Virus record (IMG/VR): IMGVR_UViG_3300027977_000102
Span: 1-35,219 of that record
Origin: a virus
DNA length: 35,219 nucleotides
Direction: 5' to 3' (one strand)
A program made the position numbers and the translations under genes. Below, piece by piece: positions 19,458 through 26,167 of this stretch. Every line of letters begins with the position of its first letter. Position 1 is the stretch's first letter. The notes under the pieces were generated by a model, which was given only the letters and a program-made list of their open reading frames with translations, did no database searches and had not been told where the DNA came from.

Positions 19458-19912
19458 CCTGGTACAACAAAATCACTGATGACTTGGGCGTACTACCTGA
19501 CTTCATCACTTACTATGAAGGTGAGTTGCTGAAGGCAAGAGCCGAAGTCAAAGTGTACGGAAAGGTAGAAGCTAACATCGCTGCTCTTCCGGGTATCACC
19601 GAGTACCGCTTCAATCAACTACAAGAGATTGAAGCGGTACTCAACTTCCTTAACATCCAACTGCGAAAGATTCGTAGGAAGCATTTTCAAAAATATCTAG
19701 AAAATTACAATCGTGCCCTGACCTCACGAGACGCCGAAAAGTATGTTGACGGTGAGCAAGAAGTTATAGACTTTGAAGTTCTCATCAACGAAGTTGCATT
19801 GGTTCGTAATAGGTGGTTGGGCATCCTAAAAGGAATTGATACTAAGCAGTGGCAGCTGGGCCATATTGTTCGCCTAAGGACTGCTGGAATGGAAGATATC
19901 ACAATTGGGTAA
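19454..19912 (+). CDS. uvsY: UvsY recombination mediator
   Basis: A 152-residue protein matching UvsY (137 in T4) in its helical layout and conserved segments: MTWYNKITDDLGVLP, LPGITEYRFNQLQEIEAVL, SRDAEKYVDGEQEV and GHIVRLRTAGMEDI. UvsY binds gp32-ssDNA and UvsX and loads the recombinase. The start overlaps the upstream gene (ATGA). It is the end of the recombination operon; the next gene has its own promoter. Confidence 0.93.
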   Translation: MTWYNKITDDLGVLPDFITYYEGELLKARAEVKVYGKVEANIAALPGITEYRFNQLQEIEAVLNFLNIQLRKIRRKHFQKYLENYNRALTSRDAEKYVDGEQEVIDFEVLINEVALVRNRWLGILKGIDTKQWQLGHIVRLRTAGMEDITIG

Positions 19913-23093: not shown

Positions 23094-24122
23094 ATGGATT
23101 GTAAAGAACATCTACTTCACTTCTTCCTGCAAGGAAAGATTAGTCTTAGTCAGTATGACTACAAGTTCATGGCTAACCTGCAAACAATGATCCAAAATAA
23201 CATGCGGGTGACTTCCAATCAGGCTAACTTATTCGATAAGTTGGTCAGTAAATATGCAAAGCAACTGACCAAGGTTGCTTTGGTCTACGCGGAATTGAAG
23301 GTCCTTCCTTGGAAGACTATGGTCGTTGAAAGCACACCCGAATATACTAGTGCAAAGGCGTCACTGTTCGAAGATGTCATCACGTTGCGGGTCCCGTTCA
23401 ACAAGGCGTTCATTTCTTACTTTCGATCTATCGAAGGTAATCCCTTTGAATGGTTCAAGGAAGAAAAACTTTATCGGGCACAGTTCAGCACAGTCGCACT
23501 TAAGACACTCTATCGCACTCTACCTAAGCACTTCGCGGTAGTAAATTACTGCGAGGTATTGAACAACATACTAGAAGATTTAAAACAGTATGAAGGTTTG
23601 ATCTGGGAACCCACGTTGATGAATATCAACGACAGGATCGTTATGGGCGCAGCTAATCCTGCCGTTATAGACCTTATCAGTAACATTGATTTGAGCATTA
23701 CTACTGATACTCTTTATAAACTATCTCGCTACCAGTTTCCGGTACATCCTAACTTTTACGGTGATTCCCCTGAATTGAGGTTTGCGTATGAATACGTAAC
23801 TGAGATTGATATAGACAATCTTGTTCAAGTGGCAAGCTGGATGAGACATTTGAAAGTTCAAAGGGTCCTGCTAGACAGAGTGCTGTCTACGAATCTAAAC
23901 AGAGTGCTGCCTACGGATAGGAATTTGCGCTCAGAGATTGAAGCTGCATTTACAGGGATTTCTGTAGTGCCGTTCTCGACCATGGGCCATGATTCTATGC
24001 CCCCTAGGTCTTTCTTGCTGCAAGCGCATGGTCATTTTAACAACCGCTTAAATACTTACGCAAGTTACAACATCGACAAAATTGTCGTGCTGAAGAATGC
24101 AAGACCAGTCGAGGTAAAATGA
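23094..24122 (+). CDS. Hypothetical protein coupled to UvsW
   Basis: A 342-residue protein. Its start MDCKEHLLHFFLQGK leads into a helical region with YDYKFMANLQTM and TSNQANLFDKLVSKY, a pattern I associate with small helical modules near phage helicases. The rest has no ATPase or nuclease motif. The stop overlaps the UvsW start (ATGA), so the two are translated together. That suggests a partner in DNA branch processing. The ATG follows a sigma-70-like box by five bases and has no Shine-Dalgarno sequence. Function unknown. Confidence 0.75.
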   Translation: MDCKEHLLHFFLQGKISLSQYDYKFMANLQTMIQNNMRVTSNQANLFDKLVSKYAKQLTKVALVYAELKVLPWKTMVVESTPEYTSAKASLFEDVITLRVPFNKAFISYFRSIEGNPFEWFKEEKLYRAQFSTVALKTLYRTLPKHFAVVNYCEVLNNILEDLKQYEGLIWEPTLMNINDRIVMGAANPAVIDLISNIDLSITTDTLYKLSRYQFPVHPNFYGDSPELRFAYEYVTEIDIDNLVQVASWMRHLKVQRVLLDRVLSTNLNRVLPTDRNLRSEIEAAFTGISVVPFSTMGHDSMPPRSFLLQAHGHFNNRLNTYASYNIDKIVVLKNARPVEVK

Positions 24123-25576
24123 GCGAAGCAAAAATAATAATCAAAGATGAAGTCAATGCAAAGATCGAGGGCTTAGAAGTAGGTGATCGTCGTGCGTTGA
24201 TGAAAATGTTTGAATTTGAGATGCCAGGCGCTCGGTATCTTCCAGCAGTACGATTAGGAAGATGGAACGGCAAGATCAGCTATTTCTCGTTAGCTGGCAG
24301 CACATATCTTAATCTGCTAGATGAGATCATTCCTTATCTATATGATAAAGGATACGAAATTGAACTTCAAGACTTACGGCAAACACACGCCGAACTCAAG
24401 TTTGAACAGGTAACAGAAAATACATTCTCTCACATCTGCTGGCCGAAAGGACACGAGCGGGAAGGTCAACCTGTTGTGTTGCGGGATTATCAGATTGAAA
24501 TCATCAACACCTTCTTAGCTAATCCACAGTCACTGCAAGAGATTGCTACAGGTGCGGGCAAGACTGTGATGACAGCCGCCCTGTCGCTATGCGCTGAACC
24601 CTACGGTAGATCGCTTGTGATCGTTCCTAACAAGTCCCTAGTCGTACAGACAGAAGCAGATTACATCAATCTAGGACTTGATGTTGGCGTCTACTTCGGT
24701 GATCGCAAGGACTACGGCAAGACGCATACTATCTGCACATGGCAATCTCTCAACAATCTTCTCAAGGGTACAAAAGAAGATGACAATGATCCTGAAATAG
24801 CAGTATCATTTTTTGAAGGTATCGGTTGCGTCATAGTTGACGAAGTTCATATGGCTAAGGCTGACGTACTCAAGACATTACTCACTGGTGTTCTCTCATA
24901 TGTTCCGATTCGTTGGGGGCTGACTGGAACGATTCCTAAGTCAGAGATGGATCGGGTATCCCTTCTAGTTTCACTTGGTCCTGTTATCGGTAAGCTAGCA
25001 GCAAGTGAACTACAAGACAGGGGCGTTCTCGCTCGGTGCCACGTGAACATTGTTCAACTGAAGGATGCGGTAGAGTTCAGTAACTACCAGAGTGAATTGA
25101 AGCATCTATTAGAAGACAGTCGCCGTCTTGATCGGATAGCTGAACTCATAATGAAGGTCAACGAGACGGGTAATACACTTGTGCTTGTTGATCGTGTTAA
25201 CGCAGGTAAAGAGTTAGTCAGCAGAATACCAGGATCAGTTTTTGTTAACGGTGGCACGAAGCTGACAGAGCGAAAGGAAGAATATGACGAAGTTGCCATT
25301 ATGGATGACAAGATTCTAATATGCACCTATGGTGTGGCCGCAGTTGGTATCAACGTGCCGAGATTATTCAACATAGTATTGATTGAACCTGGAAAATCAT
25401 TTGTACGAGTTATCCAGTCAATCGGTAGAGGCCTAAGAAAGGCAGAGGATAAAGATTTTGTGCAGATATGGGACCTTACTTCCACATGTAAGTTTGCAAA
25501 AAGGCATCTTACTCAACGCAAGCAGTTCTACAAAGAAGCTCAATATCCCTTTGTAATTGAAAAGATAGATTATTGA
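24119..25576 (+). CDS. uvsW: UvsW helicase (SF2)
   Basis: A 485-residue superfamily 2 DNA/RNA helicase. After an N-terminal domain with RLGRWNGKISYF, motif I is ATGAGKT (143-149), motif II is DEVH (241-244), motif III is LTGTIP (268-273) and motif VI is QSIGRGLRK. T4 UvsW unwinds branched DNA and R-loops, shifting replication from origins to recombination. T4 UvsW is about 500 residues. The start is set by the ATGA overlap with the preceding gene. It ends the unit; a new promoter follows. Confidence 0.95.
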   Translation: MSEAKIIIKDEVNAKIEGLEVGDRRALMKMFEFEMPGARYLPAVRLGRWNGKISYFSLAGSTYLNLLDEIIPYLYDKGYEIELQDLRQTHAELKFEQVTENTFSHICWPKGHEREGQPVVLRDYQIEIINTFLANPQSLQEIATGAGKTVMTAALSLCAEPYGRSLVIVPNKSLVVQTEADYINLGLDVGVYFGDRKDYGKTHTICTWQSLNNLLKGTKEDDNDPEIAVSFFEGIGCVIVDEVHMAKADVLKTLLTGVLSYVPIRWGLTGTIPKSEMDRVSLLVSLGPVIGKLAASELQDRGVLARCHVNIVQLKDAVEFSNYQSELKHLLEDSRRLDRIAELIMKVNETGNTLVLVDRVNAGKELVSRIPGSVFVNGGTKLTERKEEYDEVAIMDDKILICTYGVAAVGINVPRLFNIVLIEPGKSFVRVIQSIGRGLRKAEDKDFVQIWDLTSTCKFAKRHLTQRKQFYKEAQYPFVIEKIDY

Positions 25577-25599: not shown

Positions 25600-25628
25600 T
25601 TGATTTTTCTATTATTTGGTGCTATAAT
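25600..25628 (+). promoter_or_regulatory. Sigma-70-like promoter, TTGATT-17-TATAAT
   Basis: -35 TTGATT (25600-25605) and perfect -10 TATAAT (25623-25628) at 17 bases. It drives a short leader peptide (25635) and the ATT-started gene at 25667. Confidence 0.7.
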
Positions 25629-25634
25629 CATGTT

Positions 25635-25679
25635 ATGATGAAATTAAATCGTAGAGGAGAAGTAAAATTCGCATCCTAA
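25635..25679 (+). CDS. Possible 14-residue leader peptide
   Basis: ATG ATG at the expected transcription start opens a frame encoding MMKLNRRGEVKFAS and a stop. It spans the Shine-Dalgarno sequence and ATT start of the next gene in a different frame. If translated without a leader, ribosomes would cross that start site and could control it. Confidence 0.3.
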   Translation: MMKLNRRGEVKFAS

Positions 25680-26167
25680 CATTAGAGAATACATACTACA
25701 ACCTCGAAACACTTCCCGAAGAGATAGATGATCTTAGGTTTGCTATTCTCGACAACTCAACGCCTGCAAATGTTGACTATTATTATATCCCTCTGATCTT
25801 TTTGGAAACATTCAACAGTCCTGCGTTAGTTCTTCGAATCGGCAATAAGTCTATCAAGATGCCCGTTGATTGGCAGATACTCATCGGGGAACAAGAACAC
25901 GGTGATCTTGAAACTCTTCCTCTCTCCAGTCTCAATGACAGAGGATTCAATGCTTTTCAATTTAATCCACTGAGTTCGTCCTCTCCTACATTCTTACCAA
26001 TAGAGATTCTAGACATCTATCCAGATGTCACTTGGTACGCCCCGAGACTTCGCAATGGGCAGTTCCTGTGTGTTCCTATCGATGACAGTGAGAAACCTAG
26101 GTGTGTTTATTTCGTCAAAGAGGTCAGTAGGAACTGCGAAGTAGTAGACTACAATCAAGTATTTTAA
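25667..26167 (+). CDS. Conserved T4-like phage protein with ATT start codon
   Basis: A 166-residue protein. An in-frame TAG at 25652 limits the start; the only codon at correct distance from AGGAG (25655-25659, seven bases) is ATT at 25667. It would read MRILTLENTYYNLETLPEEI, and continues IDDLRFAILDNSTP, LIFLETFNSP and KMPVDWQILIG. I recognise this as a widespread family in T4-like environmental phages. The next possible start (TTG at 25802) would drop 45 conserved-looking residues. The protein is probably soluble and alpha-beta. Function unknown. ATT starts are very rare, known chiefly from infC. Confidence 0.7.
   Translation: MRILTLENTYYNLETLPEEIDDLRFAILDNSTPANVDYYYIPLIFLETFNSPALVLRIGNKSIKMPVDWQILIGEQEHGDLETLPLSSLNDRGFNAFQFNPLSSSSPTFLPIEILDIYPDVTWYAPRLRNGQFLCVPIDDSEKPRCVYFVKEVSRNCEVVDYNQVF

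Follow-up and report, generated by a model that had tools for sequence, protein, structure and literature searches.

The phrog_11279 gene in the window (the whole 35,219-nucleotide stretch of viral DNA that we analyzed) starts with ATT and not with ATG, GTG, or TTG, and sequence comparison confirmed this codon, at position 25667, as authentic and as the only workable start. Non-canonical starts of this class are conserved behind a good Shine-Dalgarno (SD) sequence in dozens of relatives, with canonical starts in other clades. Of the explanations considered, we favor control by the initiation factor IF3, for which conservation makes a far stronger case than the single sequence could.

The ATT start and the region before it

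The features around the start are the following:

24119 to 25576, plus strand: uvsW-like helicase gene with a canonical ATG, directly upstream of the phrog_11279 gene
25600 to 25628, plus strand: sigma-70-type promoter (TTGATT at 25600-25605, 17-nt spacer, TATAAT at 25623-25628; score 10/12)
25635 to 25679, plus strand: upstream open reading frame in leaderless geometry (the leader ORF), beginning ATGATG, product MMKLNRRGEVKFAS, 14 codons followed by TAA at 25677-25679
25652 to 25654, plus strand: in-frame stop TAG just 5' of the gene
25655 to 25659, plus strand: SD sequence AGGAG
25667 to 25669, plus strand: ATT start codon, seven bases 3' of GGAG
25667 to 26167, plus strand: phrog_11279 gene, 166 amino acids, function not assigned (profile match, E 1e-46)

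Only the codons AGG, AGA, AGT, and AAA lie between the TAG and the ATT, and the first canonical codon 3' of the ATT is a TTG at 25802, codon 46 of the gene. Starting at this TTG would cost 45 residues, including many positions that are invariant among relatives, whereas family homology starts exactly at codon 1, where the ATT aligns with the ATG of relatives. Since no canonical alternative exists and homology runs from codon 1, the ATT is, by sequence, the real start. An earlier sequence-only reading of this DNA had named the in-frame stop, the AGGAG, and the ATT as the sole well-placed codon, together with a TATAAT followed after six bases by ATGATG (25635-25640) and a 14-codon frame running over the SD and the start; all of these positions were borne out. 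The TATAAT is part of an extended -10, TGCTATAAT, and the promoter would put the transcription start at or adjoining 25635. The main gene itself is not in leaderless geometry, its ATT being preceded by an SD and a 32-nt leader.

A sequencing error or a decayed start would fit the ATG of the nearest relatives. We give this explanation practically no credence, as the same ATT is present in a separate IMG/VR contig (L011, also described as the window's own copy) and the ATT class is kept in distant relatives, including Vibrio phage 2.275.O.

The profile match covers residues 2-154 of the product. The gene belongs to large T4-like phages, and tblastn found relatives in jumbo phages (the PA5oct group, Atu_ph07, Phosso, RaK2, 121Q, GAP32, and others). 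The AlphaFold2 model of the product is all-beta (pLDDT 92.6), with a weak likeness of the predicted fold to the Hint (intein/Hedgehog) fold (PDB matches with E 4e-4 and weaker, TM 0.5-0.66). The Cys/Ser nucleophile expected at a Hint/intein N terminus is absent from the product, which begins (start)RILTL.

Start codons across the family

Among the 80 nearest IMG/VR relatives, 75 start with ATG, three with ATT, and two with CTG. More distant members came from two scans of viral contigs. The first, restricted to ATT and to N6 spacing, brought up 44 stretches, with a tblastn match to the phrog_11279 family at each locus; it is left out of frequency estimates, and its loci are included in the tree below. 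The neutral scan, GGAG-N5-8-NTN, gave at least 91 new family loci, not deduplicated, with starts at ATG (at least 40), ATT (at least 27), CTG (at least 16), TTG (at least 3), ATC (at least 3), GTT (at least 1), and GTG (at least 1). Pooling the matches listed and removing identical proteins left at least 199 distinct proteins: 130 with ATG, 13 with CTG, four with TTG, one each with ATC, GTT, and GTG, and 49 with ATT. ATT-selected loci are part of this pool, so that none of its counts is a frequency. A scan of genome contigs yielded eight relatives, and neither ATT nor CTG was the start in any of them.

Non-canonical starts thus account for 64 of the 199 distinct proteins among the matches listed, and all 64 stand behind an SD. 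For nearly all ATT and CTG starts the SD is GGAG at 6-7 nt, with a single case of 8 nt, although both scans of viral contigs sought GGAG, so that family members with a poor SD would escape them. No canonical codon occurs between the upstream stop and the start in 41 of the 64, and none of the 64 has an in-frame upstream canonical codon with an SD. In 11 of 14 CTG contexts, as read from the sequences, the codon directly before the CTG is ATT, and either could serve as the start.

A quick IQ-TREE of the family proteins, computed with the first residue excluded, contains a supported clade of 26 members with 19 ATT, six CTG, and one GTT. ATG, GTG, and TTG are absent from this clade, though ATT is one base from ATG. 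The homologue in Vibrio phage 2.275.O, 34% identical, has an ATT behind AGGAGG; its annotation (AUS02591.1) starts 12 codons 3' of the ATT (L005:601-636), an example of how standard gene callers truncate such genes. In seven relatives (L190, L194, L195, L197, L187, L213, and L229) the TAG of the upstream gene may overlap the ATT (AATTAG), which suggests translational coupling.

General use of ATT by these phages was considered and rejected. The uvsW genes of these contigs had 114 distinct starts: 95 ATG, four TTG, and 15 others such as AAA or CTA. The 15 were reached by extrapolation, the alignment starting only at residue 3, and ATG or TTG is the next codon in all 12 of them that were listed; none of the 114 was ATT, ATC, CTG, or GTT. 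DNA polymerase relatives had 39 ATG, 12 TTG, and one ATT, that is, ATT in a single lineage. This seeming ATT start belongs to the polymerase gene of phage contig G010 (L342:8786, G010:168786).

Leaderless-type relatives and a probable exchange of the 5' module

The nearest relatives start with ATG, lack an SD, and carry a sigma-70 promoter right before the ATG. In 94 of 97 distinct core ATG relatives, 5-6 nt separate the end of the -10 box from the ATG (6 nt in 83, 5 nt in 11); shuffled upstream sequences averaged 1.2 such cases and never exceeded 5. An SD-like 4-mer at -14 to -5 was found in none of the 97. This layout of the core ATG relatives is the one typical of a leaderless mRNA, and the leader ORF of the window has the same 6-nt spacing from its -10. 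Leaderless mRNA is known in phages from lambda cI transcribed from PRM. The ATG relatives and the leader ORF resemble it in having a -10 about 6 nt before the AUG and no SD; the family differs in that one and the same gene can carry either a leaderless or an SD-plus-non-AUG module.

Promoter type and start codon go together. All 95 members with a leaderless-type promoter, among the matches listed in the pool of 199, start with ATG, and no such promoter was found among the 64 non-canonical members. An independent-pairs test on starred branches gave 3-4 pairs in favor and none against, which is not significant at its low power.

The closest comparison is with L176, whose protein is 99% identical to that of the window but which has an ATG and is leaderless. 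The first 50-nt bin of the two genes is only 80% identical and later bins are 88-98% identical, while the upstream regions are unlike; the end of the leader, the SD, and the ATT are common to the window and L307. The 5' module of the window (promoter, leader, SD, ATT, and first codons) was thus probably exchanged by recombination, not altered by a one-base change. The sequence-only reading had held that ATG relatives without the leader frame would suggest a point change. The nearest relatives are indeed of this kind, but what they carry is a different, leaderless 5' module. Such an exchange would link the SD, the leader, and the start codon, so that the pairing of SD and start would partly be linkage and independent origins would be fewer than the protein tree suggests.

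IF3, the leader ORF, and upstream RNA elements

IF3 antagonizes leaderless translation and discriminates against triplets other than AUG, GUG, and UUG, and on leaderless mRNA the AUG cannot be replaced by other start codons (review PMC4611024). This AUG-only rule matches the ATG-only leaderless class found here. Because IF3 antagonizes both leaderless and non-canonical initiation, the gene would be under IF3-limited translation. With the ATT as the authentic start, we favor on balance the reading that initiation in much of the family is confined to routes against which IF3 discriminates, either by an SD with a non-canonical codon or by a leaderless AUG. This limit would not be universal, because a third arrangement, SD with ATG, exists in a 13-member clade (L242), the L248 clade, and RaK2/121Q/GAP32.

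Under IF3-discriminated initiation, little phrog_11279 protein would be translated as long as IF3 is in ample supply compared with 30S subunits, and more would follow a drop in free IF3 or in the 30S/70S balance, such as might occur at some point during infection; IF3 behavior is here carried over from other bacteria. In the window, the 5' end of the RNA would be the leaderless AUG of the short ORF that crosses the SD and the ATT, and this ORF may add a second, competing layer on initiation at the ATT. A broader proposal, which we put forward tentatively and with less than even confidence, is that IF3 sensitivity serves large phages as a regulatory signal, one gene switching between two unrelated architectures, leaderless AUG and SD with AUU, CUG, or AUC, by 5' module exchange and being expressed mainly when free IF3 or the 30S pool drops in infection. 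If true, phages would exploit initiation-factor discrimination, and the family would be a natural system in which to ask whether IF3 level signals in infection.

Characterized genes with IF3-discriminated starts are few, and we found no phage example among the open-access papers searched. The tested precedent is Streptomyces sigR, which starts with GTC (GTT in two species) and is repressed by IF3 (PMC5472188). As in sigR, the non-canonical start stands behind a strong, conserved ribosome binding site and is kept in relatives, and GTT occurs once here too. However, this is a phage gene that uses mostly ATT, CTG, and ATC and alternates with leaderless AUG, and repression by IF3 would be by analogy. 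As cited in PMC5472188, infC starts with ATT in E. coli and ATC in Streptomyces and is autoregulated by IF3. The phrog_11279 family shares ATT and ATC starts with infC as described there, but neither the sequence nor the predicted fold of its product is that of IF3, and the gene is not known to be autoregulated.

The main rival is dose tuning, in which the protein has to stay scarce and weak initiation, by a leaderless AUG or by an SD with a bad codon, simply keeps output low and steady whatever the IF3 supply. Either architecture should initiate weakly, and the SD-with-ATG clades may tune dose in some other way. Yet the milder codons are hardly used (four TTG and one GTG versus 64 non-canonical starts), and the SD of non-canonical starts stays GGAG at close to constant spacing, with the reservation that GGAG-based scans miss a poor SD. 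We regard dose tuning alone as the less likely reading.

The sequence-only reading had proposed that expression may respond either to initiation-factor level or to translation of a possible leaderless leader peptide. The leader ORF overlaps the SD and the ATT in another frame (+1 relative to the gene), and its geometry stands; similar leaderless-geometry ORFs overlap or abut the SD in L307, L172, L313, and L234, with a weaker case in L256. As a general feature it fell away, a leader being present in about 6 of 68 distinct non-canonical contexts. Control by the leader, its translation occluding or feeding the ATT site (occlusion or reinitiation), would fit these ORFs but is improbable for the family: ATT persists behind quite different upstream regions, and leader residues are common only where the SD and the gene's own codons force them, so the conserved peptide of an attenuator is not seen outside the overlap. 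Because most ATT and CTG members are without a leader, it is not the core of the mechanism, though it may be translated in the window and may modulate expression in lineages that carry it.

The +1 offset of the leader, with an AAA at the junction in the window and L172, would also suit programmed -1 frameshifting out of the leader and into the gene at A AAA, yielding an extended protein for which the ATT is never a start. We consider this highly improbable: there is no tandem slippery heptamer, most ATT members have no such leader, and the ATT aligns exactly with the ATG of relatives.

Two partners were considered and rejected. A special initiator tRNA could not read ATT, CTG, and GTT with a single anticodon; the window is without tRNA genes, and the 209-kb G010 has tRNAs for Arg, Leu, Glu, Asp, and Tyr only. 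Genes for IF3 are present in phages Phosso, Atu_ph07, Vibrio 2.275.O, GAP32, 121Q, and RaK2 (L328-L333) and absent from PA5oct, SCTP-2, and 12 IMG/VR contigs (possibly fragments), with no evident link between an IF3 gene and the ATT state.

Many ATT and CTG members carry a two-hairpin RNA element in their 5' region, and the element is also present upstream of the apparent polymerase ATT of G010. Its layout is stem A, then stem B-G-stem C-loop-stem C'-GCG-stem B'. Its covariation is strong: over 25 sequences, pairing is kept in 98.8% of cells, and 78 cells are double-changed versus 24 in shuffles. Each of five phage contigs has 3-13 copies in intergenic or 5'UTR positions, often directly 3' of a T4-late-like TGTAAATACAT motif; no Rfam match was found in the sources searched. 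Copies include the following:

L335:1194-1260: two-hairpin element
L342:8657-8722 (G010): two-hairpin element
G002, G003, G004, and G009: further copies

The element was rejected as the cause of ATT, since many ATT members, and the window, are without it.

A different hairpin-like element, GAGTCGCTCACG..CGAGCATGTA..CGGC..CCGGCCACAAACGGAG, covers the SD of the polymerase gene about 60 nt before the start and is conserved in L346-L424. An autogenous operator is known for gp43 of T4 and RB69, and the polymerase hairpin is possibly such an operator. Within the window, positions 19593-19650 form a palindromic hairpin that matches Rfam on both strands, though weakly and below threshold.
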